Below the pieces are notes generated by a model, which saw nothing but the letters and a program-made list of their open reading frames with translations, had not been told where the DNA came from and made no database searches. A stretch of 64,000 nt of DNA, from positions 1,347,001-1,411,000 of the forward strand of contig NZ_CP086111.1 of assembly GCF_016806835.2 (NCBI RefSeq). The letters run 5' to 3'. This document shows positions 22,639-64,000 of the stretch, one piece after another. This DNA is from Skermanella rosea (GTDB lineage: Bacteria > Pseudomonadota > Alphaproteobacteria > Azospirillales > Azospirillaceae). A program made the position numbers and the translations under genes. Every line of letters starts with the position of its first letter. The stretch's first letter is position 1.

Positions 22639-22641
22639 AAG

Positions 22642-23823: not shown

Positions 23824-23875
23824 GGGATTTCTCCTGGTGACTTTTTGACAGGTTGGAAGCGGCGGTTGGGAAGAT

Positions 23876-31884: not shown

Positions 31885-31932
31885 CCGTGGAGTGTCAGGA
31901 GGGGTGGGATCGCGATGGCGCCGGGGGAAGCT

Positions 31933-31954
31933 GCGGCGGCCCGGAAGCCGCCGC
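31933..31954 (-). promoter_or_regulatory. Stem-loop between the RTX gene and the glycosyltransferase chain
   Basis: GCGGCGGC (31933-31940) and GCCGCCGC (31947-31954) form an 8-bp GC hairpin with a 6-nt loop, 9 bp beyond the RTX stop codon on the minus strand. There is no T-run, so it may only attenuate. It would let the RTX structural gene be expressed above the downstream glycosyltransferases (inference). Confidence 0.5.
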
Positions 31955-31963
31955 GGCAAGCCC

Positions 31964-32839: not shown

Positions 32840-33103
32840 ATCAAGCCTCCAGTAAAGGGATCAGCGAAGCATTGTTTCCATGCTCTCGATAGGAGGAAAC
32901 TAGCGCTCCAAATGTTAATCGAAGGTTAAATTTGGTTCTCTGTCGCAACTTTGTACCGAGACTAAAATAAGCTTTGGAAATACTCAAGCTCAGATTTGTA
33001 AATTCATAATCCTTTACTTTTAAAGGGGTGCTCAACAGCATGCGAATTGGTTAGAAAATCGAAGCAATAAAGCGTGATTCATTGTTTCCCCTTTAAGACG
33101 GGG
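32840..33103 (-). promoter_or_regulatory. AT-rich upstream region of the RTX gene
   Basis: 264 bp with a much lower GC content than its surroundings (for example TTAATCGAAGGTTAAATTTGG around 32912-32935 and CTTTACTTTTAAAGGGG near 33011-33028). No gene is seen. It separates the secretion/GT operon from the RTX gene and probably holds the RTX promoter. No specific -35/-10 pair is convincing. Confidence 0.5.
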
Positions 33104-35712: not shown

Positions 35713-37475
35713 GATGCCTGTCCTGCCTGCGCGCCGTCCGCCAGGGTCTTGCCGGCCTTGACCAGCCGGGCCACATTGGGCGCGGTCGCGACCTGGCGCG
35801 TGCCGGGCGGGGCGGAGATCGCCTTCAGCACGTCGGCGCGGGCGCCGAACTGGTCGATCATGCCGTCCTTGAGGACCAGAAGCTTGTCCACCGCGGCGAC
35901 TACCGAGGGCCGGTGGGCGATCAGGACGACGGTCGTCCCGGCAGCCTTTGCCTTGGCGATCGCCTGGAGCAGGGCCTGCTCCCCGGCGTTGTCGAGGTTG
36001 GAGTTGGGTTCGTCCAGGACCAGCAGGCGCGGGTTGCCGAACAGCGCGCGGGCCAGGCCGATCCGCTGGCGCTGGCCGCCGCTCAGGCTGTAGGCGCTGT
36101 CGCCGACGCTGGTGTCGTAGCCGAACGGCAGCCGGCCGATCATCTCGTGGACATCGGCCATCTTGGCCGCGTTCACCACGTCCAGCGGGCTCGCCTCGGT
36201 CATGCGCGAGATGTTGTCCCGGATCGTGCCGTCGAGCAGGGATACGTTCTGGGGCAGGTAGCCGACGCTGAGGCCGAAGCTCTCCCGCTCCCACAGGAAG
36301 GTGCTGTGGCCGTCCAGGTAGATGCCGCCGGAGGTGGGCTCCCAGATGCCGACCAGCAGCCGCGCCAAGGTCGACTTACCGGCGGCGGAGGGGCCGATGA
36401 TCCCCAGCGTCTCGCCCGGCTCCAGCGAGAAGGAGATGCCCTTCAGCACCGCCTTGTCGACTCCCGGCGGAATATAGACGAGCCGGTCCACGCTCAGCCG
36501 GCCCTCGGGACGGGGCAGGGGCATGCTCTGGCGGCGGCCCTGGGTGCCGTTCAGCAGGCCGCGCACCCGGCCGAAGGCCGATAGGGCAAACACCCACTGG
36601 CGCCAGCCGTCGATCAGCTGCTCGAACGGCTGGAGCATGCGGCCCATCAGGATGCCGGCGGCCATGGCGCTGCCGGGCGACGCCTCGCGGTCGATCACCA
36701 GCACGCAGGCGGTCGAGATCATGGCGATCTGGAGGATCAGCCGGAGCGAGCGCGAGGCCGCCGTCAGCGCCTTGGCCGAGCTGTTGCCCCGGTTCAGCAG
36801 GTCGATCATGCGGTACTGGCTGCGCTCCCACCGCTTCGCCACGGCCGGCAGCATGCCCATCGCCTCGATCACCTCGGCGTTCCGGACGGTCGAGGCGATG
36901 TCGCTGAAGGACCGCGCCGCCGCCTCGTTGGCCTGGGCCAGCGGCCGCCGGGTCAGCAGGTCGGTCAGCACGCTCATCAGGAACAGCAGCACGGCGGCGC
37001 CCAGGGCCAGCCAGCCATAGATCGGGTGCAGCAGGAACAGGACGACCAGGAACATCGGCACCCACATCACTTCCAGCGGCACCGTGATCGCGCTGCCCGT
37101 GATGAAGGAGCGGAGGTCGTTGAGGTCGCGGATCGCCTGGGTGGAATTGCGCTGGCTGCCGTGCAGGGTGTCGATCACGGCGGCCTGGAGGGTCGGGACG
37201 TTCAGCCGCCGGGAGATCAGGTCGCCCATGATCAGGAAGATCCGGGTCCGGATGAAATCCAGCACCGCGTAGAGCATCAGTCCGCCGACCGCGACGACCG
37301 CGAGCATCACCAGGGTGTCGGTGCTGCGGCTGGTCATCACGCGGTCGTATACCTGCATCGTGTAGAGCGGCACGATGAGCATCAGAATATTCACGAAACA
37401 GCTGAGCACGGCAGCAAAGACCATGCCCCTGCCGAGATGCCGCAGCGTGCTGCGGAGTAGTGCGTGGTCATTCAT
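35709..37475 (-). CDS. Type I secretion system permease/ATPase (PrtD-like)
   Basis: 588 residues from ATG 37475; an in-frame TTG at 37511 is less likely. Six membrane helices in the first ~300 residues (no N-terminal C39-like domain) are followed by an ABC domain with Walker A GPSAAGKST, signature [10 protein letters not shown] and Walker B LLVLDEPNSNLD. The PrtD/AprD type exports RTX proteins with uncleaved C-terminal signals. It heads the operon with HlyD and a GT4. The likely substrate is the 291-residue RTX protein just downstream; the 979-residue RTX at 52 kb is another candidate. Confidence 0.95.
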   Translation of the reverse strand: MNDHALLRSTLRHLGRGMVFAAVLSCFVNILMLIVPLYTMQVYDRVMTSRSTDTLVMLAVVAVGGLMLYAVLDFIRTRIFLIMGDLISRRLNVPTLQAAVIDTLHGSQRNSTQAIRDLNDLRSFITGSAITVPLEVMWVPMFLVVLFLLHPIYGWLALGAAVLLFLMSVLTDLLTRRPLAQANEAAARSFSDIASTVRNAEVIEAMGMLPAVAKRWERSQYRMIDLLNRGNSSAKALTAASRSLRLILQIAMISTACVLVIDREASPGSAMAAGILMGRMLQPFEQLIDGWRQWVFALSAFGRVRGLLNGTQGRRQSMPLPRPEGRLSVDRLVYIPPGVDKAVLKGISFSLEPGETLGIIGPSAAGKSTLARLLVGIWEPTSGGIYLDGHSTFLWERESFGLSVGYLPQNVSLLDGTIRDNISRMTEASPLDVVNAAKMADVHEMIGRLPFGYDTSVGDSAYSLSGGQRQRIGLARALFGNPRLLVLDEPNSNLDNAGEQALLQAIAKAKAAGTTVVLIAHRPSVVAAVDKLLVLKDGMIDQFGARADVLKAISAPPGTRQVATAPNVARLVKAGKTLADGAQAGQAS

Positions 37476-37957
37476 GCAGGGGACGGGCTCCAAAGCGGGC
37501 GCTGGGTGCAATGCAATATTGGGGCAAATTGTTAAACGGGCGTTAAACGGCCGTTTCCCGGAAAATCGAGCTGATTGAAACCTTCAGCTTTCTTTGAAAA
37601 AAGGGATAAATTCGAAACAAAATGGTGTGCTGACCGGTACGGTATGAAGAACCGGCCCGGATCCGGGCGGTGCGCCGACGCGGCTGGATCGGAACTGGAT
37701 TCAAACGAAATTCCGTTTGGTTTAACTGGATGTCTGTAGTGCTTTTTCTCAAATAAAACTGGTTAATATTCAAATATGCATCTAGGATGCATTAACTTGC
37801 GGGTAATAATCGCATGATAATTCTTGTGCTCAATGGGGCCGGAACCAGCCGGCCTTCAGAGTTTCCCGCATCAAGAGTCGCCGAAACCGCGGTAGGAAGG
37901 ACCAGAAATCCTCCTGTGCCCTTCGGAGCTTGGCGCGGCTCAATAAAGGAGCTTTAC
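37476..37957 (+). promoter_or_regulatory. AT-rich divergent promoter region between the secretion operon and galE
   Basis: 482 bp without a credible gene. It contains a short direct repeat (GTTAAACGG at about 37531 and 37543), several A/T-rich tracts and a perfect palindrome ATGCATC-TAG-GATGCAT at 37776-37792. AAAGGA precedes the galE ATG. It likely carries promoters in both directions; the palindrome is a candidate operator for an unidentified regulator. Confidence 0.5.
37776..37792. promoter_or_regulatory. 7-3-7 palindrome, candidate operator
   Basis: ATGCATC, TAG, GATGCAT is a perfect inverted repeat in AT-rich DNA, about 165 bp before galE and 300 bp before the secretion operon. No known regulator consensus is claimed. 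Confidence 0.35.
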
Positions 37958-49117: not shown

Positions 49118-51529
49118 CTATTCCGGGGAGCCGGCACCCAGGGGCTCCGCTCCGCCCGGCAGGTCCAGGGCGAAGCCCAGGAACCGGGTTGTCTGCGTCC
49201 TGCTGAAATTGTTGTCGCTGACGAGGACGAGGCTCTGGCGGCCATCCGGAAGCACCGGTCCCAGCGCCAGCCCTTCGACGTTGCCGAGCGGAAGTCCGAG
49301 CTTGGACAGGTCCAGCAGCAGTTCCTTGGCCGCCGGTACGGGAGCCGGCCGGCCGGCGAGGCCGTGGATGCCGGAGATATCGTCGGCATCGCCGATGCGC
49401 ATCTCGAACAGCTTGATCGCGTGCTCCGCTCCCGTGCCGAAGGACCGTTCCAGCGCCAGCAGGGTGCCCTGGTCGTCGAGGGCGAGCAGTTCGACCAGGC
49501 CGCTGAGCGCGAATCCGCCGGCGGTCTTCGGCGCGGCGGCGATCGCCTCGGTCGGGTAGAGGTATTCCGCCTTCACTCGGCCGCTCGCGGTATCGAAGGC
49601 CAGGATCCGCACGGGACTTCCGCGGTCGAGGCTCGCTTCCGGGCCATCCTGGGCCAGCGCGTTCTCCGTGGCGGAATAGAGAGTGCGGCCGTCGGGCGTG
49701 AGGGTCAGGCTCTCGAAAGCGAGGTTGTTTCGGACACCCTGGGCGCCTTCCCCGTCGGGCAGGAACTTCGACGGCACCTCCAGCGACCGGAGCTGCCGGC
49801 CGTCCGGGCCGAACTCCGCCACGAAGGGCGGCACACGGTTGCCGGCGTCGCCTTCCGACGCGATGAACAGCGTTCCCCCGGCGCTCAGGGCGATGCCTTC
49901 GGGGTCCGCCGCGCCGTCCGGGAAGGGCCGCCCGTCCGGGGTGGTCAGGTTGACGGCCGCCGTGACGGCGACGTCGCCGTCGGCCAAGCGCCCGTCCGAG
50001 AGATCCAGGTCGAGCGTATGGAAGCGCGGCGCGCCGGTCTCGCCGCCGCGGCTGTCGGAGATGGCGTGGAACGATCCCGTCGCCGGGTTCCAGGCGAGGC
50101 CCGACAGCCCGCCGACCTCCGTACCCTCGAACCTGAAGCCGGCGGGAAGGGTCGCGACGCCCAGGAATTCGATCTCGGTTCCGTCGCGGAGCACCCGGGC
50201 CGCGATGCCGGGATGGTCGGTGAAGAAGCCGTCCGCGCCGAGCTCGGCCAGCAGCCTGACCTGTTCGGGCAGGGTCAGCGCCGTGCCGTCCGGCTCCAGC
50301 GGAAGGAAATTCTCCTCCGCGCGCAGGGTATAGGGATGGACCAGCAGGCCGGCCTCGTGGGCATCCCGGATCAACGGCCGGATCTCCCCGGTCAGGCGGG
50401 AGACGACCCGGGCGGCGCCGTCGCCGTCCGCATCCACCGGCCGGTCGAGCCTTTCCCGCAGGAGGATGCTGTCGATCCAGGGGCCGATGCCTTCGGCATA
50501 CCGGGCGGAGATGTGCTTCAGGACGTCGGGCGCGACGAGATCGCCGTAGCCGGTCTGCCGGCCGATCGCGATCGGAAACCCGTCGTAGACCGACATGTCG
50601 GCGCCGCGTGCCGCGTTGTCCGGATCGGCGTTGAAGGCGATGTCATAAGGTGCCGAGAAACCGCCGGACCCGCGGAGGCTGCCGAGCAGCTGGACCAGCG
50701 GCAGGTCGATGCCGGCGGCCGGCATGGTCTTGTCCTGGAGTTCGATCAGGTTGGCGACTTCGAAGCTCTGGATGAAGACCCGGGATGGATCGGTGAAATC
50801 CTGCTCGGCCAGGGTCCGGACCAGGGTGCCGCCCAGGTCGGCCCGGATCGACGAGCCGCCGTCGATGACATCGAGCTGCCCGTTGCGGTTGGCGTCCTCC
50901 CCGGGGTCCAGGATGCCGTCGCCGTCCCGGTCCTCGTTCTGGCGGGTGCCTTCCAGGGCGTGGTAGGTGGGGTGCTTGGTTTCCGCATATATCCCGACCT
51001 TGCGGCCGGTCTCGGCTTCCACCTGTTTGACGAGCCGGACGATCTCCTCCAGCGTCGGGATCTCGAACCGGCCGTCATAGGCCGCGTTGTCCGGCCGGAT
51101 CGCGGGGATGCGCTCCCGCGCGCCCAGCTGCTTGATCTCGGCCAGCGAGAAATCCTCGCTGAACCATCCGGCCACCGCCTCGCCGTCCATCAGCTTGATG
51201 GCGAACCGGTCGGCGAAGTCGGGCCTGCCGTCGCCATCGCCGTCGAATTCGGCGACGTCGGTGGTTCGCTGGGTGACGACGGGACGGCCGTCGGCGCCGA
51301 ACAGGATGTTGCCGTCCGCATCGAGGCGGACCTGCGCCAGCAGGTTCTCGTGACGGGCGATCAGGACGCCGTCCCGCGTCGTCACCAGGTCGGGTTCGAT
51401 GAAGTCGGCGCCCAGTTCGATGGCGAGACGATATGCCTCAAGCGTGTGCTCCGGGCGGGAGCCGCTCGCTCCCCGGTGGCCGATGACGATGGGGGTTGCG
51501 GCGATCTGCGTCCCCTGGCCCTGCATCAT
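49118..51529 (-). CDS. Glycerophosphodiester phosphodiesterase fused to esterase-like (phytase-like) domain
   Basis: 803 residues from ATG 51529, which has GGAGGAG just upstream. The N-terminal GDPD domain shows IGHRGASGSRPEHT with H18/R19, E45 and D47 (FIEPD) and H60. Within it, DGDGDGRPDFAD and DRDGDGILDPGEDANRNGQL are EF-hand/dockerin-like Ca2+ loops. From about residue 470 the sequence has the beta-propeller 'esterase-like activity of phytase' character (GLSGLAWNPATGSFHAISD). It probably hydrolyses glycerophosphodiesters and possibly another phosphate ester. No Sec signal is seen, so export by type I secretion or cytoplasmic action are both open. Confidence 0.85.
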   Translation of the reverse strand: MMQGQGTQIAATPIVIGHRGASGSRPEHTLEAYRLAIELGADFIEPDLVTTRDGVLIARHENLLAQVRLDADGNILFGADGRPVVTQRTTDVAEFDGDGDGRPDFADRFAIKLMDGEAVAGWFSEDFSLAEIKQLGARERIPAIRPDNAAYDGRFEIPTLEEIVRLVKQVEAETGRKVGIYAETKHPTYHALEGTRQNEDRDGDGILDPGEDANRNGQLDVIDGGSSIRADLGGTLVRTLAEQDFTDPSRVFIQSFEVANLIELQDKTMPAAGIDLPLVQLLGSLRGSGGFSAPYDIAFNADPDNAARGADMSVYDGFPIAIGRQTGYGDLVAPDVLKHISARYAEGIGPWIDSILLRERLDRPVDADGDGAARVVSRLTGEIRPLIRDAHEAGLLVHPYTLRAEENFLPLEPDGTALTLPEQVRLLAELGADGFFTDHPGIAARVLRDGTEIEFLGVATLPAGFRFEGTEVGGLSGLAWNPATGSFHAISDSRGGETGAPRFHTLDLDLSDGRLADGDVAVTAAVNLTTPDGRPFPDGAADPEGIALSAGGTLFIASEGDAGNRVPPFVAEFGPDGRQLRSLEVPSKFLPDGEGAQGVRNNLAFESLTLTPDGRTLYSATENALAQDGPEASLDRGSPVRILAFDTASGRVKAEYLYPTEAIAAAPKTAGGFALSGLVELLALDDQGTLLALERSFGTGAEHAIKLFEMRIGDADDISGIHGLAGRPAPVPAAKELLLDLSKLGLPLGNVEGLALGPVLPDGRQSLVLVSDNNFSRTQTTRFLGFALDLPGGAEPLGAGSPE

Positions 51530-51678
51530 GGTCTCCTCCGTCCCGGCCCGGTCTGGCGCCGATGGGAGAACAGGTGGGGGTGCCGTGTCGATCGGTCGCA
51601 TGAAATTTCCATGTCAGGCACAGCGAACGGGCGGCCCGGCGGTTGGCATAGTCGAGGAAACCACGGGACGGCGGAGCC

Positions 51679-52077: not shown

Positions 52078-55017
52078 ATGTCCAGCGCTCCCGTTCTTTG
52101 GTCTGCCCCAATCCTTAAGTTGAATCACACGGTCATCGATCTGAGCAAGACCGGAGCGAGAACCTCGTGGGAGTTCTCGAGTGATGAAGACGTCCTGTTC
52201 ATCGCGTCCGATGAAGTCAGGACCCTCGATCGGCTTCAGACGAAAGGTGGAAACAACATCGTCGTGATCGGCGGCAAGTTCGAGCCGAACGATCACACGA
52301 CGGCGGTCGCCACCCTGAACTTCACCCATGTTTCCGGATCGGTCTATGTGGAAGGCGTCCATATCGACCATCAGTATGCCGGCGAGAAGGACGCCATCTC
52401 CGTCTACAGCGCGGAAGGCAAGCAGGCCAACTTCACCCTGCAGAACTCGCTGATCGAGAACGTCAAGGGCAGCTACTACGGCATCCACGGCGATGTCTTC
52501 CAACCCCAGGGGCCGATCGGCGACATCAAGTTCTACAACGTCACGGCGTCCACGACTTACCAGGGCCTGTTCCTGCAGCCCAGGGATCCGATCAAGTCGG
52601 TCGAACTCGAGAACGTGGAGATCCGGAAGCTGCCGGGCGGCGACACAAAGTCCTGGTTGTATTACTTCTCCCAGCCCGGCGACCACTTGTATCCGGTCTC
52701 GCTCAAGAACGTCTACGTCACCGAGCAGCCGGGCCAGCGGGCCGAGTACAACTCCGTCTACCCTCCGATCGGGCTGGGCGGCGCGGTCCGCTCCGGGGAC
52801 ACGATCACCTTTCCCAATCTTCCCTATTCCGGGTCCATGAAGGTCGGAACCGCGGGGTTCGTCTCGGCGGACAAGGTCGGCCTCGGCTATGAGGCGAGCG
52901 GCCTCCCGGCTTCCGGCGCCTTCCGCGGAACCGCCGGCGACGACGTGTTCCAGGGCGGCTCCGGGACCGATACCCTCGACTACGGCTGGGTCCCGTCCGC
53001 GGTCGTGGTCGACCTGGTGCTCGGCAAGTCGAGCGGCGGGGGCGGCAACGACCGGTTCAGCGGCATCGACAATGTCAAGGGCTCCGCCCATGCGGATCGG
53101 ATCGTCGGCAATTCCGGAGGCAACGTGCTGGCGGGCGGGGCCGGCGACGACAGCCTGTCCGGCGGGGGTGGCAACGACCGTCTGGTCGGCGGGGCGGGCA
53201 GGGATACCCTCCGCGGGGACGCGGGCGACGACTGGCTCGAGGGCGGGCAGGGCGACGATGTCCTGGACGGCGGTTCCGGCTTCGATACCGTCGACTATTC
53301 GGCCGCCCCGGGCGCGGTGGCGGTCGATCTCAATGCCGGGACCGCGTCGGGGGGCGACGGGACGGACACGCTCATCTCCATCGAGGCGGTGGCTGGTTCG
53401 GCCTTCGACGATACCCTGATCGGCAACTGGACCGTCAATTATCTGGCGGGCAACGCCGGAAACGACGTGCTGCGGAGCGGCGGCGGTGACGACTGGCTCT
53501 CGGGTGGAGCCGGCAACGACATCCTGGACGGCGGGACCGGTGCCGACAGGATGCTGGGCGGCGCCGGAGACGACACCTATTACGTCGACAATGTCGGCGA
53601 CACGGTCGAGGAGAACGCGGGCGAGGGCGTCGACACCGTCTATTCCACGGTTTCCTGGACCCTGGGCGCCAACGTCGAGAACCTGACCTTCACCGGCTAC
53701 GCGAGCCTGACCGGGCGCGGCAACGGGCTGGCCAACGTGATGAGGGGCGGCAATGGGTCGGATACGCTCCACGGGCTGGGCGGCGACGACAGGCTCTATG
53801 GCGGTGCCGGTGGAGATTTCCTGTATGGCGGCGACGGCAACGACACCCTGGACGGCGGCGACGGCAACGACACCCTGAAGGGCGGCAACGGCAACGACAC
53901 CCTCCAGGGCGGCGCCGGCAACGACTGGCTCGAAGGCGGGGCGGGTGCCGATACGATGATCGGCGGCGCGGGGAACGACACCTATATCGTCAACGACGTG
54001 ACCGACATCCTGGTCGAGCGCCCCGGGGAGGGTACAGACACCGCCAGGGCGACGGTATCCTACGTCCTCGCCGCCGAGGTCGAGAACCTGAACCTGGAAG
54101 GGGGTTCCGCCCTGTCCGGAACCGGCAACGCGTCCGCCAACGTGATCCGGGGCAACGCCGCGGACAACATCCTGAGAGGGAGGGGGGGCAACGACACCCT
54201 GCACGGCAACGCGGGGAACGACTGGCTGGACGGTGGCGACGGCAACGACATGCTCTACGGGGGCGACGGCGACGACCTGCTGGAAGGCGGCGCCGGCAAC
54301 GACCGCCTCGACGGCGGGACGGGCGCGGACCGGATGATCGGCGGGTCGGGCGACGACACCTACTACGTGGACAATGCGGGAGACGAAATCTTCGAGGTGC
54401 CCGGCGGCGGCATCGACCTCGTGTGGTCCTCGGTCTCGCTGGCCATGGCGAACGAAGTCGAGAACCTGATCCTGGTCGGGACGGGCAACCTGGACGGCAC
54501 CGGCAACGGCCTCGGCAACAAGATCCAGGGCAACGGCGGCGCGAACCTGCTGCGAGGGGGCGGCGGCGACGACTGGCTCCGGGGCTGGGACGGCAACGAC
54601 CGGCTCGAAGGCGGGGACGGGAACGACGGCCTGGACGGCGGGGCCGGGAACGACATCCTGATCGGCGGCGCCGGGCGCGACCGGCTGTCCGGCGGAGCGG
54701 GGGCGGACCGGTTCGTCTTCAACTCGGTCGAAGACAGCGGGCCGGGATGGGGACAGCGGGACAACATCCTGGACTTCCAGCCCGGGATCGACATCATCGA
54801 CCTGAGGGCGATCGATGCCGACACCACGCTGGCGGGCGACCAAGCCTTCGCCTTCATCGGCGGTTCCGCCTTCGGCAAGGTCGCCGGCCAGCTCCGGTGG
54901 TACGAGGCGAACGATTTCCGGATCGCCCAGGGCGACGTGAACGGCGACGGGGTGTCCGACTTCGAACTCCAGATCACCGGCCCCGCGACGATCGAGAAGT
55001 CGTTCTTCCTGCTCTGA
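52078..55017 (+). CDS. Large RTX protein with beta-helical N-terminal domain
   Basis: 979 residues. The N-terminal ~280 residues (TVIDLSKTGARTSWEFSSDE, then NNIVVIGGKFEP, then FTLQNSLIENVKGSYYG) look like a right-handed beta-helix as in polysaccharide lyases/epimerases. About 60% of the rest is GGxGxDxL Ca2+ repeats in blocks. Three ~65-residue linkers of the form DDTYYVDNVGD...VENLTFTGYASLTGRGNGLAN separate the blocks. The end (DRFVFNSVEDSG ... DILDFQPGIDIIDL-like, VNGDGVSDFEL) is the serralysin-type C-terminal module and type I secretion signal. Possibly a secreted polysaccharide-modifying or matrix protein; it is next to the exopolysaccharide locus. Confidence 0.9.
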   Translation: MSSAPVLWSAPILKLNHTVIDLSKTGARTSWEFSSDEDVLFIASDEVRTLDRLQTKGGNNIVVIGGKFEPNDHTTAVATLNFTHVSGSVYVEGVHIDHQYAGEKDAISVYSAEGKQANFTLQNSLIENVKGSYYGIHGDVFQPQGPIGDIKFYNVTASTTYQGLFLQPRDPIKSVELENVEIRKLPGGDTKSWLYYFSQPGDHLYPVSLKNVYVTEQPGQRAEYNSVYPPIGLGGAVRSGDTITFPNLPYSGSMKVGTAGFVSADKVGLGYEASGLPASGAFRGTAGDDVFQGGSGTDTLDYGWVPSAVVVDLVLGKSSGGGGNDRFSGIDNVKGSAHADRIVGNSGGNVLAGGAGDDSLSGGGGNDRLVGGAGRDTLRGDAGDDWLEGGQGDDVLDGGSGFDTVDYSAAPGAVAVDLNAGTASGGDGTDTLISIEAVAGSAFDDTLIGNWTVNYLAGNAGNDVLRSGGGDDWLSGGAGNDILDGGTGADRMLGGAGDDTYYVDNVGDTVEENAGEGVDTVYSTVSWTLGANVENLTFTGYASLTGRGNGLANVMRGGNGSDTLHGLGGDDRLYGGAGGDFLYGGDGNDTLDGGDGNDTLKGGNGNDTLQGGAGNDWLEGGAGADTMIGGAGNDTYIVNDVTDILVERPGEGTDTARATVSYVLAAEVENLNLEGGSALSGTGNASANVIRGNAADNILRGRGGNDTLHGNAGNDWLDGGDGNDMLYGGDGDDLLEGGAGNDRLDGGTGADRMIGGSGDDTYYVDNAGDEIFEVPGGGIDLVWSSVSLAMANEVENLILVGTGNLDGTGNGLGNKIQGNGGANLLRGGGGDDWLRGWDGNDRLEGGDGNDGLDGGAGNDILIGGAGRDRLSGGAGADRFVFNSVEDSGPGWGQRDNILDFQPGIDIIDLRAIDADTTLAGDQAFAFIGGSAFGKVAGQLRWYEANDFRIAQGDVNGDGVSDFELQITGPATIEKSFFLL

Positions 55018-55092: not shown

Positions 55093-57336
55093 TCAGTTCC
55101 GGAAGTAGCTTTCGTACTTGGCGCCGTAGGGGCTGTAGATCCCCTTGTCATAGCTGGCGTAGCGCCGCATGTGGACCTGGGTGAGGACGGACGTCACATG
55201 GATGTCGTCGGCGAACCGGCGAAGCTTGCGCAGGCCGGCCAGGGCCGCCGACTTCGGCGTCTTGCCCCACTGGACCAGATAGATGCACTGGGCCGCCATG
55301 GACGCCAGGATCGCCGCGTCATGGACCGCGCCGATCGGCGGGCTGTCGATGATCACCAGGTCGTAGTCGTGCGACGCCATGGTGACGAACTGCTGCATCC
55401 GGTCGGAGTTCAGCAGGAAGTCCGGCTCCGGCGTGGGTGTGAAGGACGGGGCGACGTCCACGCCCAGGCGCGGGTCGTGCCGGGGAACGGATTCGTAGGG
55501 CAGGCCCCGCTGAAGCATCGTGCTGAGGTCGATGCCGCCTTCCCGCTGGCGTCGGCTGGTTGCGCGCCGGCGCAGGTCGCCGTCGATGATCAGGACCTTG
55601 CGGCCCATCCGGGCCATCTGAACGGCGAACGCCTCGCAGAACGTGGTCTTGCCTTCGCCCGGCGCCGTCGAGGTCACGAGGATCACGTTCCGGCCGGTGG
55701 TCGCCGTTCCCGCCTGGGTGGCATGGGCGATGTCGCGCATTCCCTGCGCGAAGGTCGAGCCGGGCCGGTCGCGGAGATAGGCGCCGGGGTTCTTGGCCCT
55801 GGACCGGGTCAGGCGGGGCACCAGGCCGAGGACCGGGACGTTCAGGGACGCCTCGACGCTTTCCAGGCTGCGCATGCTGCGGTCGAGCAGGTCACGCAGG
55901 ATGGCGGCGACGGCTCCCAGCAGGATGCCCAGGATGGCGGCGCCCACCAGCATCGGGACCTTCTGCGGGAAGGAGGGGAAGATCGGCGCCGCGGCGGCCG
56001 ACACGACCGACAGGTCGGGAGCCGACAGGCGTTCCGGGTTGTCGATCGCCTTGTACTGGGCGAGCGTCTCCTCGAAGGTCGCCCTGAGCGCCCGGGCCTC
56101 GCTTTGGAGTTGGTCCAGCTGGGCGCGGGCCTGGCCCTGGCCGCCGATCTCCTCGGACAAGGTGTTGTAGGCCCGTTCCAGGCTGACCTCGCGCGCCTTG
56201 AACGCGACCACGTTGGAGGCCAGGCCGGAAACGATCCGGCGCATCTCCGCCTGGATGTCGTTCTGCACGGCCGCGAGCCTGGAGCGCAGCTCGATGATCA
56301 CCGGATGGCGCCGGCCCAACTGGGACTGCTCCGTCAGCTGCCGCGACAGCTCGCCTTCCTGGTCGCGCAGCCGCTGGATGACCGGAGAGTCCAGCATCTC
56401 GGCCACCGCGCCGCCATTGCTCATCGCGTCACGCGCCGACTGCAGCTTGGCTTCCGCCGTCTGCCGCTCGGCCCGGAGCTGGACGAGCTGGGCGTTCATC
56501 TCCGACATGCGCTGGACGAGCACGGGGCCGCTTTCCGTATCGACCAGGTTGTTCTCGGCGCGGAAGGCCTGGACCTTCTGCTCCGCGTCGCGAACCTGCT
56601 CGCGCAACTGGTTGAGGGATTCGCCGAGCCAGCCGGTGGCCGAACGGGCCAGGTTCAGCTTCTCGGCGCTCCGATAGGCCAGATACTCCTCGACCAGCGT
56701 GTTCGCGATGCGGGCCGACTTGGACGGATCGGAGGAATGGAAGCCGACGAGGATCGACAGGGACCCGGCATCGTTGGAGACGCTCAGGTTCTTCACCGTC
56801 GAATCCACGGTCATGTAACGGATGCCCTCCTCGGTGGGGGGTGGCCCGCCGCCGCGGACGAATCCGACGACCGTGGAATAGGCCTTCTCCCAGATCCGGG
56901 AGAGCGCGCCCTGGTTGGGGTCGTCGAGCACGGGATTGAACTCCGGGTCCTCGACGAGGCCGAGCCGGTCGACCACCCGCCCGACGATCGTGCGGGACTT
57001 CATCACGTCGATCTCGGAGCGCAGGCCGGCGTCCTCGCCGGAAAGGCCCGGCAGCAGGGCTTCCAGGCCGCTCCCCTTGGCGGCCCCGCTCTCGGCCTTC
57101 AGAAGGACCGACGACGAGTATTGGGGAGCCATCTGCGTCAGGACCGTGCCCGCCAAGGCGGCTGTCAACAGCGCCACGGCAAGGATCAGCCATCGCTCCC
57201 GGTACAGCAGCGAGAAGAACCTCGACAGGTCGATGATCCGGTCTTCCTCGGGTGGACGTATCTGGAGGACGACGGAGCCGCCCTCTCGTGCTGGAGGCAG
57301 CTCCCTGGATGGGGCGGAAAGTTGGTTACGTGCCAC
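55093..57336 (-). CDS. Polysaccharide biosynthesis tyrosine autokinase (Wzc/ExoP type)
   Basis: 747 residues from GTG 57336, with GGAGGAAC upstream. The N-terminal Wzz-like chain-length domain is bounded by membrane helices (ERWLILAVALLTAALAGTVL near residue 55 and VPMLVGAAILGILLGAVAAI near 470), with a long periplasmic coiled coil between. The C-terminal BY-kinase has Walker A TAPGEGKTT around K563, Walker A' KVLIIDGDLRRR and Walker B LVIIDSPP. The Tyr-rich tail (RYASYDKGIYSPYGAKYESY) is the autophosphorylation cluster. It controls polymer length and export of a capsular or exopolysaccharide. Confidence 0.93.
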   Translation of the reverse strand: MARNQLSAPSRELPPAREGGSVVLQIRPPEEDRIIDLSRFFSLLYRERWLILAVALLTAALAGTVLTQMAPQYSSSVLLKAESGAAKGSGLEALLPGLSGEDAGLRSEIDVMKSRTIVGRVVDRLGLVEDPEFNPVLDDPNQGALSRIWEKAYSTVVGFVRGGGPPPTEEGIRYMTVDSTVKNLSVSNDAGSLSILVGFHSSDPSKSARIANTLVEEYLAYRSAEKLNLARSATGWLGESLNQLREQVRDAEQKVQAFRAENNLVDTESGPVLVQRMSEMNAQLVQLRAERQTAEAKLQSARDAMSNGGAVAEMLDSPVIQRLRDQEGELSRQLTEQSQLGRRHPVIIELRSRLAAVQNDIQAEMRRIVSGLASNVVAFKAREVSLERAYNTLSEEIGGQGQARAQLDQLQSEARALRATFEETLAQYKAIDNPERLSAPDLSVVSAAAAPIFPSFPQKVPMLVGAAILGILLGAVAAILRDLLDRSMRSLESVEASLNVPVLGLVPRLTRSRAKNPGAYLRDRPGSTFAQGMRDIAHATQAGTATTGRNVILVTSTAPGEGKTTFCEAFAVQMARMGRKVLIIDGDLRRRATSRRQREGGIDLSTMLQRGLPYESVPRHDPRLGVDVAPSFTPTPEPDFLLNSDRMQQFVTMASHDYDLVIIDSPPIGAVHDAAILASMAAQCIYLVQWGKTPKSAALAGLRKLRRFADDIHVTSVLTQVHMRRYASYDKGIYSPYGAKYESYFRN

Positions 57337-57611: not shown

Positions 57612-58859
57612 CTACGATCGGATTGCCTCTCGCGTAGTCACGATGGAGACAGGATAACCTTCCCCGGCGTTCGACCGGGGGTTCGGCGTGATGCGGCGGA
57701 GCAGCGCCATTTCCCGCGCTTCCTGGCAGATCAACAGGATTATCAGGCCGTAGATCGGGCTGAGCTTGTTGCTGCCCGCGGTGATTCCCATCATGCCGGT
57801 GATCATGCAGTAGACCGAGGTCACCAGCGCGGGAGACAGCACGCCGAAAGCGCGGGTATAGGCGATACCGCTCCTGATGGTGGAGATGAAGAAGGCGGTG
57901 AGCAGCAGGGCCGCCGGCCAGCCGTTCTCGAACGCGGCGTTGAGCCACATGTTGTGGGCATGGGCGGGAACCCAGTTCCACTTGTCGACCGCGCCGAAAC
58001 GGAACGTCGCCAGCCCGTGGCCGACGATCGGTTCATCGCGGATGGCGTCGAGCGTCATCAGCCAGATCGGGATCCGGTTGGTCAGGGTGCCGTCGGCATC
58101 GCCCCGGGACAGCAGGGTCGCGGCGATGATCATCAGGCAGGCTCCCGCTACCCCGCTGAGGGTCAGCAGCAGGAACGTGCTGCCCATGTCCCGGCGGAGG
58201 CGGTAGATCATCACCCCCAGGATCATGAGCATGGACACCGCCGTGAAGAACCGCGCCTGCGTCCCGGCGAGGGATGCCAGGCAGACGGCGAGCACGGAGC
58301 ACAGGACGAGGACCCGCCGGCTCAGGCCGTGCTCGCGGTCGGTCAGCCACATCATGACGAAGGTCGCCGCCAATCCCGTCAGGAGCGCCAGACGCTGCTC
58401 GTGGGTCAGGATGCTTTTGAACCGCCAGATGAAGGGATTGTCCGACAGCATGGCGGTCTGCCCGGCGGCCAGCCCCAGCCAGCCCATCAGGCTGACCACG
58501 ACGGCCGAGGCGACGAAGGCGCGCATCGACAGGTCGGTGGGCAGGCCCGACAGGCCGATGCCGACCAGCACCGCCAGGACGAGTATGGTCAGGGCGAAAG
58601 CGGATTCCGCGACGTTGCCGGACCAGACCGTCGTCACGGCGACCCATCCCAGGTATGCGAGCAGCCAGACCACCGGAGGCGACGCCACCACGGCGTGGGG
58701 CATCCGCATCAGGCGCGGGCTCAGCAGGAGCACCGCGCCGCCGAGGATCAGCGGCACGAAGGGGGCGAACAGGCGGCGCTCCTCGTCGCCGAAGCGCGGC
58801 GACTGCACCTCTGTCAGGGTGAAGGCGACGAACGCCAGAAACAGGAGGAAACGACTCAT
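57612..58859 (-). CDS. O-antigen ligase/polymerase family membrane protein (Wzy/WaaL-like)
   Basis: 415 residues with about 10-12 hydrophobic segments and a larger periplasmic loop containing the family motif region (IVGHGLATFRFGAVDKWNWV followed by PAHAHNMWLNAAFENG). The H-x-H/N and ExG pattern is typical of PF04932 O-antigen ligases and polymerases. It polymerises or transfers undecaprenyl-linked glycans on the periplasmic face. Being next to Wzx- and Wzc-like genes makes a polymerase (Wzy) role more likely than ligase. The start overlaps the stop of the GT2 gene (ATGA). Confidence 0.88.
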   Translation of the reverse strand: MSRFLLFLAFVAFTLTEVQSPRFGDEERRLFAPFVPLILGGAVLLLSPRLMRMPHAVVASPPVVWLLAYLGWVAVTTVWSGNVAESAFALTILVLAVLVGIGLSGLPTDLSMRAFVASAVVVSLMGWLGLAAGQTAMLSDNPFIWRFKSILTHEQRLALLTGLAATFVMMWLTDREHGLSRRVLVLCSVLAVCLASLAGTQARFFTAVSMLMILGVMIYRLRRDMGSTFLLLTLSGVAGACLMIIAATLLSRGDADGTLTNRIPIWLMTLDAIRDEPIVGHGLATFRFGAVDKWNWVPAHAHNMWLNAAFENGWPAALLLTAFFISTIRSGIAYTRAFGVLSPALVTSVYCMITGMMGITAGSNKLSPIYGLIILLICQEAREMALLRRITPNPRSNAGEGYPVSIVTTREAIRS

Positions 58860-59881
58860 GGAATTGCCTTGGGTGCGCGGCGCTCGATCGTGAGTATACG
58901 ATCAAGAAGCGGGCGCGTGACCCGGTCCATCGGCTTTCCTGCCAGGCTACTCAGGATGAGATAAGCAGCCTTGAAACGCCGCGAGGACAGGTGTTTCGCC
59001 GCCAGCTGGTGGGCCTGCGCGGCGTTCCCGAAGAGCATCAGCTTGGAGGCGGCCTTGAAGATCTGGGCCTGGATCGACTGCTCTCGGAGCGCCACCATGG
59101 TGTCGATGCCGTGCGCCTTCAGCTCGGTCAGCCGCTCCTCCTGGAGGGCCGGGCTCAGGTGCGAGAGCTGGACCGCCAGCTGCGTGAAGCGGACCTGCCT
59201 GCTCAGCTTCGCGGGCTCGAACGAGACGCCGTCGAACTGGACATAGCGGTCGTACAGGACCTCCGGAACGACCGCGAACCTGCCTTGCCCGATCAGCCTG
59301 AGCCACAGGTCGTAGTCCTGGGAGAAGGTGAACTCGCTCCTGTAGCCGCCGGCCCGCTCATAGGCGTCCCGGCGGAACATCACCTCGCCGTGCGAGAAGA
59401 TGTTGCTCTTCCTGAGCTTTTCGACGGTGAGGCCGTCGGCCGACGGGGTCCGCACCCGGACCATGCCGCTGCCTTCCACGATGTTGCGGTAATGGCAGCC
59501 GACCGCGACCACGTCGGGGTTCCTCTCGAACATCTCGACCTGCCGGGCCAGACGGTCGGGAGCCGACGCGTCGCCCGACCCCTGGACCGCGACGTAGCGC
59601 CCCCTGGACCGGGCGATCGCGTTCATGATGCCCCGGGTGAACCCGGTGTTCCGCTCGTGGTGGATCACGGTCAGGCGGGGATCGTCATAGGCGTCCAGCT
59701 GCCTTCCGGTATCGTCCTTCGAGCAGTCGTTGAACGCGATCAACTCGAAGTCCCGGAAGCTTTGGCCGAGGATCGAATCGACGGTCCGCCGGACCAGGGG
59801 GCCGCGGTTGTAATAGCCGGTGACCACGGAAACCAGGGGCGCGGACGGGCGCACGGGATTTTGGTTTCGTTCAGGCGACAT
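58856..59881 (-). CDS. Family 2 glycosyltransferase
   Basis: 341 residues. The GT-A N-terminus is LVSVVTGYYNRGPLVRRTVD, the nucleotide-binding acidic site is YVAVQGSGDASAPDRL (GSGDxS), and further motifs are MFRRDAYERAGGY and FSQDYDLWLRL, with the catalytic Asp in the last. It adds a sugar to the lipid-linked repeat unit at the cytoplasmic face. Its ATG lies inside the last codons of the flippase gene (11-bp overlap), and its stop overlaps the Wzy-like start, so the genes are translationally coupled. Confidence 0.92.
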   Translation of the reverse strand: MSPERNQNPVRPSAPLVSVVTGYYNRGPLVRRTVDSILGQSFRDFELIAFNDCSKDDTGRQLDAYDDPRLTVIHHERNTGFTRGIMNAIARSRGRYVAVQGSGDASAPDRLARQVEMFERNPDVVAVGCHYRNIVEGSGMVRVRTPSADGLTVEKLRKSNIFSHGEVMFRRDAYERAGGYRSEFTFSQDYDLWLRLIGQGRFAVVPEVLYDRYVQFDGVSFEPAKLSRQVRFTQLAVQLSHLSPALQEERLTELKAHGIDTMVALREQSIQAQIFKAASKLMLFGNAAQAHQLAAKHLSSRRFKAAYLILSSLAGKPMDRVTRPLLDRILTIERRAPKAIP

Positions 59882-61187
59882 GGAGCTTCCTTTGGCGGCG
59901 CACGATCTTCAGGGACAGGTTGCGAAGGATGCTCCACAGTTCCCGGGGGCGGATGAGCAGAACATCGATCGGGGACGTCTTGAACCGTCTGCAGAACAGG
60001 ATCAGGATTCCGACCGCCCCGGCGGCCTGGACGATCACGGTGGCTGCCGCCGCGCCGATCAGGCCGTATTCCGGGATCAGCAGCCAGCACAGAACCCCCT
60101 GGACGACGATGGAAGGCCCGAGCACCGCCGTGCCGGCGAGGGGCTGTCCCTGGGAGGCGAGATACATCTGGAGCATGCGCGCCAGCGCCCCGAACGGTGC
60201 GCCGATCATCAGGATCCGCAGGGCACCGACGGCTGGCAGGAAGTCGCTGCCGAGCATCAGGTACACGACCGGCTCCGCCCCGACCGCGAGGACGACCGAG
60301 ATGCAGATGAAGAGGAAGACCGAGAACCGGATCATGCCCAGCGCCGAGGCGAGATCCTCGGCGCGGCCCGACTCCCTGACGCCCTGCGAGAAAAGGGTGG
60401 TGCCCACGGCGACCGCGATCTCGGAGAAGATCTCGCAGAGCTTGGACACGCCGAAATAGCGGCCGGCATCGGCCAGCGAGGAAAGCGTGTTGACCAAATG
60501 GGCGACCAGGAGGCCGTTGCCCATGTAGAGGGAGTAGGGAAGGATGTACTTCATCCCCGTCCGCTGCAGACGCCAGAACCCCGCCAGTTCCAGGGGAGCC
60601 CGGCCGGCGGCGCCGAGGCGCAGGGTCCACCCGACATAGGCGGCGGCCGCCAGCTGGCCTCCGAACGTCGCACCCAGCGCGAATTCCAGGGTCACGTCGT
60701 CCAGGAGCGCCATGGGGGCGAGAAGCGCCAGGGGGATGATCCGCCCGATCAGGTCGGCCCAGGCGAGCTGCTCGACCTTGCCCTCGCCCAGGTTCATTCC
60801 CTGGTAGATGTTGACGAACAGCATCGGCAGGAGCATGGCGACGGCCAGCCCCTTGGAGACGGGCGAGATATCCTCGTAGGGCCACAGGAGCAGGGTCGCG
60901 ATGGCCAGCGACGCCAGCGAACTGAGCACCCAGCTGATCAGGCTGGCCTGCTCGATCTGCGCGCGGCTCGCCGCCTGCTGGCCCAGGCTCCTGGCTCCGG
61001 CCTGGCGCATTCCCAGATGCCCGACCGAGGACAGGAAAAGGGCCACCAGCGCCGAATAGGCGTAGAAGCCGAACTCGTGGGAGTCCAGCGCCCGCGCCAC
61101 CACGAGCAGGGTCAGCAGGGCGGTGAAACGGACAAGCAGGCGCGACGAGAACAGCAGCGCCGCCTGACCGAGGGGTTTGAGCCGCAT
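59871..61187 (-). CDS. Oligosaccharide flippase (Wzx-like, MOP superfamily)
   Basis: 438 residues with about 12 membrane helices and few charged loops. The N-terminus FSSRLLVRFTALLTLLVVAR and DSHEFGFYAYSALVALFLSS resemble polysaccharide-type MATE/MOP flippases. It would move the undecaprenyl-linked repeat across the inner membrane for the Wzy-like polymerase encoded two genes downstream. It starts 9 bp after the murB stop and overlaps the GT2 gene. Confidence 0.9.
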   Translation of the reverse strand: MRLKPLGQAALLFSSRLLVRFTALLTLLVVARALDSHEFGFYAYSALVALFLSSVGHLGMRQAGARSLGQQAASRAQIEQASLISWVLSSLASLAIATLLLWPYEDISPVSKGLAVAMLLPMLFVNIYQGMNLGEGKVEQLAWADLIGRIIPLALLAPMALLDDVTLEFALGATFGGQLAAAAYVGWTLRLGAAGRAPLELAGFWRLQRTGMKYILPYSLYMGNGLLVAHLVNTLSSLADAGRYFGVSKLCEIFSEIAVAVGTTLFSQGVRESGRAEDLASALGMIRFSVFLFICISVVLAVGAEPVVYLMLGSDFLPAVGALRILMIGAPFGALARMLQMYLASQGQPLAGTAVLGPSIVVQGVLCWLLIPEYGLIGAAAATVIVQAAGAVGILILFCRRFKTSPIDVLLIRPRELWSILRNLSLKIVRRQRKLHVA

Positions 61188-61196
61188 CGCCTATTC

Positions 61197-62105
61197 TCAA
61201 ATCAGGAAGGTGACTTCGGGGTCCAGGGCGACATCGAAACGCGATGCGACGGACTCCTGGATGTGTTCGACCAGGTTCCTGATGTCGTCGGACGTGGCCG
61301 CACCGGTGTTCTCGATCCAGTTCGCATGCTTGTGGCTGATCATGGCGCTGCCGATGCTGCAGCCCTTCAGGCCGGCATTCTCGATGTACCAGCCGGCCGC
61401 GGCGCCGCCCGCCGGCTGCTTGAAGGTGCTTCCGGCGGTGCGGCGGTCCAGCGGCTGCTTGGCATGCCGGTCCGCCATGTGGGACCGGATCTCGGACATG
61501 AGTTCCTTCGGATCCCCCATCGAGGGGCCGCGGAAGACGACTTCCGTGACCATCCACCGCTTCTCCGCCAAGCTGCTCTGCCGGTAGTCGAGGCCGAGTT
61601 CGGCGGCGGGGACGGTGGCGATTTCACCGGAGGTGAGGTCGACCACCGTGGCGGCCTCGAGGATCGTCGAGATCTCCCGGCGTCCCTTGGCGGTCAGGCC
61701 CGCGTTCATGGCGGTCCCGCCGCCGACCGAGCCCGGGATGCCGACCAGGAACCCGAAGCCGGCGATCCCGGCGCGGGACGCCGTGCGCGCCAGCTTGGGC
61801 AGCTGCACGCCAGCGCCGGCACGCACCGTCGATCCCTCGACCTCGATGTCGGTGAAGCTGTTGCGCAGGCAGATCACCAGGCCGTCGAAGCCGCGGCTGT
61901 CGATCAGGACGTTGGAGCCGCGGCCGAGCACCCGGACGGAGATGCCGGATTCCCGGCACCGCCGCAGGACGTCGGGCAGGGCATCGCCGTCGGGTTCCCA
62001 GAACCACCGCGCCGTTCCGCCGACCTTCCAGGTCGTGTAGGGGTGGAGCGGTTCGTCGCACCGGATCGGCCGTTGCGTAGTCAGCCCGGCAAAGGGGTCA
62101 GGCAT
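61197..62105 (-). CDS. murB: UDP-N-acetylmuramate dehydrogenase (MurB) in an exopolysaccharide operon
   Basis: 302 residues, short (type II) MurB. The FAD-binding parts are YTTWKVGGTARWF (23-35), GRGSNVLI (61-68) and VGIPGSVGGGTAMNAG (121-136). The catalytic residues are present: R175 (DYRQS), S226 (AGSTFKQP) and E297 (DPEVTF). It reduces UDP-GlcNAc-enolpyruvate to UDP-MurNAc with NADPH. The ATG at 62105 lies inside the last 25 bp of murA. A murB is normally in the cell-division cluster; here it sits between murA and a Wzx-like flippase, so it is probably a second copy serving polysaccharide synthesis (inference). Confidence 0.88.
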   Translation of the reverse strand: MPDPFAGLTTQRPIRCDEPLHPYTTWKVGGTARWFWEPDGDALPDVLRRCRESGISVRVLGRGSNVLIDSRGFDGLVICLRNSFTDIEVEGSTVRAGAGVQLPKLARTASRAGIAGFGFLVGIPGSVGGGTAMNAGLTAKGRREISTILEAATVVDLTSGEIATVPAAELGLDYRQSSLAEKRWMVTEVVFRGPSMGDPKELMSEIRSHMADRHAKQPLDRRTAGSTFKQPAGGAAAGWYIENAGLKGCSIGSAMISHKHANWIENTGAATSDDIRNLVEHIQESVASRFDVALDPEVTFLI

Positions 62106-63493
62106 GCTGCGCCTCGCTTGTTGAGAGGAGTATTCTGTTCCGCGGACGACGCGGGAGAGTAGGCTGCGTTGACCCGCTGGATTCTGGCCCCGAGGGACGA
62201 CAGCACGGTCGCCAGGTCGGCATAGCCGCGGTCCAGCTGGTAGACGTTTCCGATCGACGTCCGGCCCTCGGCCGCGAGGGCGGCGACGACGACCGCGGCA
62301 CCTCCACGGATGTCCGTTGCCTGAACGTCGGAGGCGTGAAGCCGTTCCACGCCCTCGACCACGGCAATCTTGCCTTCCTGGCCGTTGACGCAGGTGAATC
62401 CCCCGTCGATCACGTCGATGCGGGCGCCCATCCGCACCAGTTCCGGGCAGTACCGGAAACGGTCGTCCAGGATGGTCTCGGTCACCCGCGAGGTGCCCCG
62501 GGCAAGGGACATCATGACGGTATGGAGCGGCTGGATGTCGGTGTGGAAGCCTGGATAGGGGCGGGTGGAAACGTCCCGGGCGGTCAGCCTGTCGGGGCAG
62601 GCGACGCCGAACCCGGTCGCCGTCGGCTGGACCCGGAGGCCCGCGGCCTGCCAGACCTCGAATTCGTTGGCGAGGTATTCCGCGCCGACGCCGGTCACCA
62701 GGGCCTCGCCGCGGGTGCAGGCCACCGCCGCCGCCAGCGTCGCCGCGAAGACGCGGTCGCCCAGGATCTGGTGCGAAACGCCCCGCAGCTTCTGCGGGCC
62801 GGTGACCGAAAGGGTGCGGTTGGCGTCCCAGGCGATCTCGGCTCCCATGGATTGCAGGAGCGTGATCGTGTCGATGACTTCGGGGTTCAGGGCGGCGTTG
62901 TGCAGGATCGACTGTTGCCCGACCCGTCCCACGGCCGCGAACAGGAAGTTCAGGGTGGCCCCGAACGACGGATAGTGGAACGACGTCGTGACGGTTTCCG
63001 GCTTGGGGCCGCCGCAGATGCTGAACGACCGCTCGTTGTCGAAGACGAAGTAGCCGAAGTCCGAAAACAGCTGCGCGTGCAGGTCGTGCTTGCGGCTCCC
63101 CAACGAGCAGCCGCCGACGCCGGTCAGGTCGGCGGGAACCTGGTAGAACGCCGACAGGCCCATGAGCAGCAGGACATGGCGGAACCGCGTCGACAGTTCG
63201 GGCGAGAAGGCCCCGCCGTGCCAGCCGCCGCCGTCCAGGGTGAGGGTGCTGGGTCCATCGAAGGTTATCCGCACGCCGTGAGCGCCCAGGGTCGTGATCA
63301 TCAGCCTGACGTCGGCGAGATCAAGCGGCACGTTGGTCAGCGTGGTCGGCTCCCTGGACAGGCACGCCGCGACGAGGGCCGGCAGCGTGGCGTTCTTGGC
63401 GCCGGGGACGCGGACCTGCCCGGTCAGACGCGCGCCGCCCTCGATCGAGATGAAATCCGTGGCGTTGTTGGCAACGGGGCGAGGGGTCCACAT
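62081..63493 (-). CDS. murA: UDP-N-acetylglucosamine 1-carboxyvinyltransferase (MurA) in an exopolysaccharide operon
   Basis: 470 residues, about 50 more than usual because of N- and C-terminal extensions. Catalytic residues are present: K33/N34 (GAKNATLP), C129 (VGGCSLGSR, the PEP/fosfomycin Cys), R134, D319 (PGFHTDIQ) and the late Arg in LDRGY. It transfers enolpyruvate from PEP to UDP-GlcNAc. The sequence is divergent from housekeeping MurA (for example HTVMMSLARGTSRVTETILD). It is the first gene of the murA-murB-wzx-GT2-wzy operon, and AAAGGA lies 9 bp before the ATG. Probably a paralogue for surface-glycan synthesis. Confidence 0.88.
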   Translation of the reverse strand: MWTPRPVANNATDFISIEGGARLTGQVRVPGAKNATLPALVAACLSREPTTLTNVPLDLADVRLMITTLGAHGVRITFDGPSTLTLDGGGWHGGAFSPELSTRFRHVLLLMGLSAFYQVPADLTGVGGCSLGSRKHDLHAQLFSDFGYFVFDNERSFSICGGPKPETVTTSFHYPSFGATLNFLFAAVGRVGQQSILHNAALNPEVIDTITLLQSMGAEIAWDANRTLSVTGPQKLRGVSHQILGDRVFAATLAAAVACTRGEALVTGVGAEYLANEFEVWQAAGLRVQPTATGFGVACPDRLTARDVSTRPYPGFHTDIQPLHTVMMSLARGTSRVTETILDDRFRYCPELVRMGARIDVIDGGFTCVNGQEGKIAVVEGVERLHASDVQATDIRGGAAVVVAALAAEGRTSIGNVYQLDRGYADLATVLSSLGARIQRVNAAYSPASSAEQNTPLNKRGAACLTPLPG

Positions 63494-64000
63494 GCATCAG
63501 GTCCTTTCGATGTGGGTTCGGCCGGCCTCGGCTTCAAAGACTGAGGGCCGTCGGGCCGGTACCCTGAACGATCGGTTCGAGATCGCGGGTGCCGTGAAGA
63601 ATTCGGGAAACGGGAGTGGATGACCGGAGAAGCCCGGTCACCGGAACATCCCGGAGTGCATAAGGGAAACGGATCGCCACCGGGCGACCCGTCTGGCGAT
63701 GCCGGCGCGCGACGCCTGCCGGTCCGGCTTGTCGCCGCCGGGTCATCTTCCTGGCGGGCTCCGGTTCGGGATCGTTCGCAGGGGGACTTTCGGCATGTCC
63801 GGGGATCGGACTGTAAGCAGGGGTCTGTGGACTCATCGATCGTGGTGAGGCTTCCGGGGCGGGAACTTCTGTCGTCGCGTGACGCTTCCAATAGGCCAAG
63901 TGCCTATCAAAGCCGGTTGTGAAAGTCGGTTCAATACTGTCCGACTCAAAGAATAGGATTGGTATAAATTTGTCACCGACAACGTTCCTTAAAAAGAATG
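63494..64000 (-). other. Region upstream of murA, no convincing gene
   Basis: 507 bp to the end of the window. Open frames on both strands (63620-63922 plus; 63534-63834 minus) lack third-position GC preference and good ribosome-binding sites, so I do not call them. The last ~80 bp (63920-64000) are AT-richer and may be a promoter for the minus-strand operon or for a gene beyond the window. Confidence 0.45.

Follow-up and report, generated by a model that had tools for sequence, protein, structure and literature searches.

A 64,000-nucleotide stretch of the Skermanella rosea genome (contig NZ_CP086111.1, positions 1,347,001 to 1,411,000; hereafter the window, whose internal positions serve as coordinates) contains a murA-murB pair embedded in a Wzx/Wzy exopolysaccharide operon. 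We consider it reasonably probable that this dedicated transferase-reductase pair makes a uridine diphosphate (UDP)-linked O-lactyl N-acetylhexosamine (HexNAc), which would be placed into a Wzx/Wzy polysaccharide by the family 2 glycosyltransferase (GT2) of the same operon. The observations behind this reading are that the genes are intact, keep their catalytic residues and evolve under purifying selection, that the same genome has a housekeeping pair elsewhere, that in a distant organism too such a pair is linked to a flippase and the same GT2 type, and that the MurAs form a distinct clade; from them we infer the acceptor sugar, the role as donor, the assignment of the GT2 and the composition of the polymer. 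The arrangement is genuine and unusual and is conserved in two lineages; the mechanism proposed for it is plausible.

All genes of the operon lie on the minus strand. The first of the coupled run encodes a MurA-like enolpyruvyl transferase of the polysaccharide-locus type (62081-63493, 470 amino acids, Pfam EPSP_synthase), followed by a MurB of the UDP-N-acetylenolpyruvoylglucosamine reductase type (61197-62105, 302 amino acids, FAD_binding_4 and MurB_C). Downstream are placed a Wzx-like flippase (59871-61187, 438 amino acids, Polysacc_synt_3 at 22.5 bits with a cut-off of 23), the GT2 (58856-59881, 341 amino acids, Glycos_transf_2), which is the candidate transferase for the lactyl sugar, a Wzy-like polymerase or O-antigen ligase family protein (57612-58859, 415 amino acids, Wzy_C) and a Wzz/Wzc-type polysaccharide co-polymerase with a C-terminal P-loop domain (55093-57336, 747 amino acids, Wzz and AAA_31). 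murA and murB overlap by 25 bp, 9 bp separate murB from wzx, the flippase and GT2 genes overlap by 11 bp and the GT2 and wzy genes by 4 bp, and 275 bp lie between wzy and the co-polymerase gene. Flippase, polymerase, co-polymerase and glycosyltransferase are thus all present, the flippase with a match just under its cut-off, and in these components the locus is of the Wzx/Wzy type. The overlap, the catalytic residues and the run into flippase, GT2 and Wzy-like genes described in the sequence-only reading, an earlier annotation of this DNA, are all in place. Scans for promoters and terminators gave matches at chance level.

The genome (7.76 Mb in seven contigs) carries a separate housekeeping murA (C1:1018306-1019580, 559.9 bits) and a separate housekeeping murB (C1:4169058-4169900, 165.8 bits), both above cut-off; the latter sits in an apparent division cluster ending in ftsA, ftsZ and lpxC, as judged by eye with no family search. 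Since these genes exist, the window pair is a second copy, and the objection that it might be the only murA and murB of the organism falls. A third match to the MurA profile in the genome reached 49 bits. Inspection by eye of the gene calls, in the window and for 29 kb beyond it, brought up no other mur gene; no profile search for murC and the rest was made there. Comparison of the window with its sister genomes gave dN/dS (the ratio of nonsynonymous to synonymous substitution rates) of 0.05 and 0.09 for murA in two genomes, 0.15 for murB in a single genome pair, and 0.06-0.27 for the flippase, GT2, wzy and co-polymerase genes. Because their dN/dS is low (0.05-0.15), murA and murB look like maintained genes.

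The MurA-like enzyme retains K33, N34, R105, C129, R134, D319, R396 and R422. In Escherichia coli numbering, obtained by an offset between the organism's own housekeeping MurA and the E. coli motifs, K22, N23, R91, C115, R120, H125, D305 and R397 are kept in all four polysaccharide-locus MurAs (those of the window, two sister genomes and Paenibacillus senegalensis); we take all eight to be catalytic positions, and K22, N23, R91, C115, R120, D305 and R397 to be those that mark MurA-type enolpyruvyl transferases. An AlphaFold2 model has a mean pLDDT of 81, falling below 50 in the C129 loop (127-134), and the 43 best Foldseek matches in the PDB are all MurA chains, with TM-scores by query length of about 0.76-0.83. 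Several MurA structures are titled with UDP-N-acetylmuramic acid (UDP-MurNAc) and a phosphoenolpyruvate (PEP) adduct, presumably the product-locked state. TIGR01072, the MurA equivalog, has a curated cut-off of 392.7 bits, which is missed both by the window copy (347.9) and by the P. senegalensis locus copy (383.6), the two of the four locus MurAs that were scored; the organism's housekeeping MurA scores 560.3. Both locus copies pass the broader subfamily NF006873 (cut-off 297), with 359.4 and 392.3 bits, respectively. The curated cut-off does not, then, name the protein MurA; that it would work like MurA stands.

These scores bear on the question of which sugar is the acceptor. Of 139 columns at least 90% invariant among 28 housekeeping MurA rows (a 29th row, the divergent PsC3 copy, being excluded), 79 are unchanged in all four locus MurAs, and at 22 the four share the same new residue. 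Five of the 22 fixed changes (A92H, P121K, V163F, F328L and E329D) fall at MurA-site positions, as listed from excerpts of two docking papers (PMC10816260 and PMC12402399), and about 11 extra residues are found near 362-372 relative to housekeeping MurA. The shared residues and the missed cut-off suggest an altered acceptor, a UDP-sugar other than UDP-N-acetylglucosamine (UDP-GlcNAc), such as an epimer, a deoxy- or a uronic-acid HexNAc, in which case the product would not be muramic acid. There is a precedent in NikO, the enolpyruvyl uridine monophosphate (UMP) transferase of nikkomycin synthesis, which in the excerpted text of PMC6801904 transfers enolpyruvate to another acceptor. NikO (PDB 4fqd) resembles the window enzyme in being a relative of MurA that serves a secondary pathway; it differs in acting on UMP in an antibiotic pathway, and it is 25% identical by structure alignment and ranks below the 43 MurA chains. 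Moreover, the enrichment of fixed changes in the pocket is not significant (5/16 versus 17/123, p = 0.08; at an 80% limit 5/17 versus 24/163, p = 0.11), and K121 is also present in one housekeeping row, the division-cluster MurA of P. senegalensis. In control genomes 10 of 14 TIGR01072 matches pass and the other four are archaeal, so that a score under the cut-off cannot alone identify a new substrate. We regard an altered acceptor as a tentative proposal, to which somewhat more speaks against than for; it is a narrower form of the preferred reading, and the confidence placed in the two overlaps. The conserved active site also bears on the suggestion of the earlier annotation that the second MurA could affect fosfomycin sensitivity. 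Nothing direct was found for a spare drug-tolerance copy that lowers this sensitivity; all four locus enzymes retain the reactive cysteine, so inhibition by fosfomycin is expected, and such a copy would not account for a position beside murB, flippase and GT2. We find this explanation hardly credible.

MurB is the more conventional partner. R175, S226 and E297, which we take to be the active-site Arg, Ser and Glu, are present, and in the alignment they are unchanged in the P. senegalensis locus MurB and in the housekeeping MurB of the window genome. The protein passes the equivalogs TIGR00179 (192.4 bits, cut-off 144.5) and NF010480 (292.4 bits, cut-off 259), as does the P. senegalensis locus MurB (230 and 297.6 bits). 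That MurA is more clearly set apart in the trees than MurB could suit a pathway in which the enolpyruvyl intermediate itself decorates the polymer, MurB acting partly or elsewhere. However, murB adjoins murA in all four polysaccharide loci, and the window MurB keeps its three residues and is under purifying selection; a role for the unreduced intermediate is therefore judged very unlikely.

The operon is the same in the two sister species (G079 and G080), with 90-98% protein identity gene by gene and an intact murB in G079. Close MurA orthologues (96-97%) occur there, which, with the window genome, makes three of five genus genomes and three of 82 family genomes. The other two genus genomes (G078 and G081) retain the antiporter and class II ribonucleotide reductase genes that border the region and lack the operon in between. 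Across the 82 genomes the other full-length MurA matches are 36-39% identical to the window copy; the partial matches comprise a split gene of G061 (40% and 44%) and one match in G003 (26%). Extra MurAs at eight loci in six family genomes (two each in G052 and G053, one each in G059, G060, G061 and G065) were considered and set aside as housekeeping type, being 59-67% identical to the housekeeping MurA of the window genome and 36-39% to the window copy.

Beyond the family, a scan of 84,980 species genomes with exact 8-residue patterns, which misses diverged members and which was the only search to reach phyla other than those of the window and of Paenibacillus, gave one strong relative. This is a MurA of Paenibacillus senegalensis JC66, 47% identical over 428 columns, above any full-length match in the family. 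The other five loci are at 25-32%, the archaeal matches (L051-L053) at 25-26%. Two Clostridiales MurAs were rejected: they group with other P. senegalensis MurAs, and no polysaccharide genes were recognized alongside them in open reading frame lists, which were not searched for families. Among 398 genomes of the window's phylum (E ≤ 1e-85, a sample without the sister genomes) 71 matched and only the window's own copy was of this type, at 1000 bits, with the other 70 at or below 312 bits. In searches of 398 genomes from the phylum of Paenibacillus (E ≤ 1e-110) and 104 from its family (E ≤ 1e-100), P. senegalensis was the sole member found. Viral contigs gave 24 pattern matches and no relative; the best identity was 37.7% in plasmids among the matches listed (best 15 of 134 records) and 35.8% in phages among those listed (best 5 of 43). 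This MurA type is rare within the sampled genomes.

The four polysaccharide-locus MurAs are set off together by a 100/100 branch in a tree of 35 MurA rows, on a stem of 2.79 changes per column and apart from 29 housekeeping rows. The expected clade tied to polysaccharide genes thus exists, as does the linkage itself, in two sister species and in Paenibacillus; its anticipated spread through the family does not, given the three genomes of 82. For MurB, a larger tree took in the 30 Bacillota MurBs most similar to that of the window, the two housekeeping copies and 12 of the 28 rows from the class. Here the four locus copies group at 89/91 (87% of bootstrap trees), unstarred, and the class housekeeping MurBs form a separate 100/99 group that excludes the second MurB of the window. 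This is suggestive of a shared history of the MurBs of the polysaccharide loci. Trees of the housekeeping copies, together with an earlier placing, put the window organism far from Paenibacillus, and we infer for the murA-murB pair a Bacillota-like origin with transfer between phyla.

Read in order, the P. senegalensis locus has proteins of Wzz- and Wzc-like type, then a galU-like gene (by eye), an initiating transferase (Bac_transf) and three family 4 (GT4-type) transferases; murB and murA come next, ahead of a flippase (Polysacc_synt), a GT2 and a GT4, and a nucleotidyl transferase with a mannose-6-phosphate isomerase domain and a UDP-glucose/GDP-mannose dehydrogenase follow. The linkage seen in this distant organism is that of a flippase and the same type of GT2 beside murA and murB. 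Against the P. senegalensis genome the window GT2 matches the locus GT2 at 199 bits (44% over query residues 9-237) and the next protein at 82.6 bits; in the five genus genomes its best non-orthologue GT2 gives 90.5 bits. P. senegalensis also carries a murB-murA pair within a division cluster, 45 kb from the polysaccharide locus, and five MurA-like genes above 240 bits (G462, L065-L069), the locus copy included.

Extra MurA copies in Gram-positive bacteria add UDP-MurNAc for the wall, and the pair could likewise be spare peptidoglycan enzymes, their position in the operon being an accident of gene gain. The retained catalytic residues, the MurB scores above the equivalog cut-offs and the four further MurA-like genes of P. 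senegalensis agree with this. Yet a flippase and the same GT2 type adjoin the pair in the distant organism too, and the long-stemmed MurA clade stands apart from the 29 housekeeping rows; we hold spare wall enzymes to be unlikely. Of what had been claimed earlier, namely that the locus makes a donor for a lactyl-ether residue in an exopolysaccharide, the polysaccharide role is the best fit to the data; a lactyl ether in the polymer is presumptive, and the donor may be UDP-MurNAc or another lactyl sugar, the MurA being under its equivalog cut-off.

For the preferred reading, the dedicated supply of a lactyl sugar to the polymer, we propose the following model. The MurA-like enzyme would transfer enolpyruvate from PEP onto a UDP-HexNAc, and MurB would reduce the enolpyruvyl product to a UDP-activated O-(1-carboxyethyl) HexNAc, either UDP-MurNAc or a near relative of it. 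Transfer of this lactyl sugar to an undecaprenol-linked repeat unit would fall to the adjacent GT2; Wzx would flip the unit and Wzy polymerize it, the Wzz/Wzc protein setting the length. A transferase-reductase pair of its own could free this donor from the control of the peptidoglycan pathway, an argument drawn from the product-locked MurA state. It is conceivable, if still doubtful, that the MurA subfamily, its partner MurB and their own GT2 constitute a transferable cassette in distant bacteria, making a UDP-linked lactyl-ether aminosugar other than UDP-MurNAc.

Several results weigh against the preferred reading. The housekeeping pair already supplies UDP-MurNAc, and neither an initiating sugar-phosphate transferase nor an outer-membrane exporter was found among the Pfam-scanned proteins near the operon, the rest of the genome not having been searched. 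The arrangement is carried by two separate lineages only, and these differ in gene order, murA preceding murB in the window and following it in P. senegalensis; murB-murA adjacency is itself ordinary in Paenibacillus. No Wzy-like match was obtained among the ten P. senegalensis locus proteins scanned, and identity between the two flippases is 23% (424 aligned columns), a value that says little alone. As to the trees, the program flags long branches and an unusual residue composition for MurA, and in a 34-row MurB tree the four locus copies group at 95/64 (unstarred). The window MurB is 41% identical to the division-cluster MurB of P. senegalensis and 39% to that of the polysaccharide locus, which is the 32nd row by score in the Bacillota listing, with 31 others above it (best 45%). 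The lack of significant pocket enrichment, given above, belongs here too. The Bacillota MurBs nearest to the window's (45% and 43%) were set aside: of four regions fetched, three (L139-L141) are division clusters by eye and the fourth (L142) had no MurB among its gene calls. A plasmid MurB of P. cellulosilyticus sits in an annotated division cluster.

An open frame upstream of murA (63534-63899) is common to three genomes; it is probably not a gene, because dN exceeds dS in all three pairs. Just past the window end, upstream of the operon and on the same strand, are two Core-2/I-branching-type transferases (PF02485, L006:13132-14953), 88-91% identical in the sister genomes, which are possible further transferases for the same polymer. 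RTX-repeat proteins flank the operon on both sides, at 52078-55017 and, beyond the window end, at L006:11330-13114. The former (979 amino acids, plus strand) is convergent with the operon, its membership of which is uncertain, and its N-terminal part has no Pfam match and is beta-helix-like in appearance. By eye, both sister loci have similar frames at the RTX positions, and those matching 52078-55017 start alike or fall in repeats. A single frame at 49118-51601 combines two domains, glycerophosphodiester phosphodiesterase and esterase-like phytase. A second cluster (20996-37511) contains several GT4/GT2 proteins alongside an RTX-type protein and, by eye, a secretion-ATPase-like gene; its polysaccharide pyruvyl transferase (PF04230) lies at 22642-23823. 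In G078 and G081, look-alike genes, again judged by eye, lie close to the same flank.

Compared with known systems, the window pair shares with housekeeping MurA and MurB the families, the MurA fold and the catalytic residues, so that the two-step enolpyruvyl transfer and reduction would be expected; it differs in being a second copy in a Wzx/Wzy operon, with a MurA that is under the cut-off, in a clade of its own, and distinguished by its extra residues and 22 fixed substitutions. The operon resembles other Wzx/Wzy-dependent exopolysaccharide operons in its flippase-like, Wzy-like, GT2 and Wzz/Wzc-type proteins and departs from them in adding the enolpyruvyl transferase-reductase pair. The O-antigen of Proteus vulgaris O15 reportedly contains 4-O-(1-carboxyethyl)-GlcNAc, and Shigella boydii 17 is said, in a reference title, to have two genes for glucolactilic acid. 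If these are homologous to the present pair, the present system would be a new branch of that theme and no first case. The excerpted text of PMC10609480 names N-acetylisomuramic acid in Proteus penneri 62 and 4-O-(1-carboxyethyl)-glucose in Shigella dysenteriae. By an excerpt of PMC9912281, a residue with such an ether gives NMR signals at about 1.4 ppm (CH3) and 78 ppm (C2). The O-antigens of Proteus and Shigella thus carry the type of residue predicted here, and the idea that the chemistry of the pathway would be new had to be given up, lactyl-ether residues of bacterial polysaccharides, isomuramic acid included, being already known. In excerpts of PMC7031244, murA is up-regulated with a Paenibacillus flocculant polysaccharide, a result interpreted there as peptidoglycan. 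A literature search found no description of this gene arrangement and no worked-out pathway for a lactyl-ether aminosugar outside peptidoglycan.

In two distant organisms MurA and MurB relatives are associated with a flippase and a single GT2, which defines a directly testable pathway; its natural MurA variants are on offer to probe acceptor choice in a major antibiotic target. Should the preferred reading be true, muramic-type residues in soil or in biofilm matrix could have a source other than peptidoglycan; were the pair, with its GT2, a transferable cassette, dedicated enzymes would be using muramic-type chemistry outside peptidoglycan.

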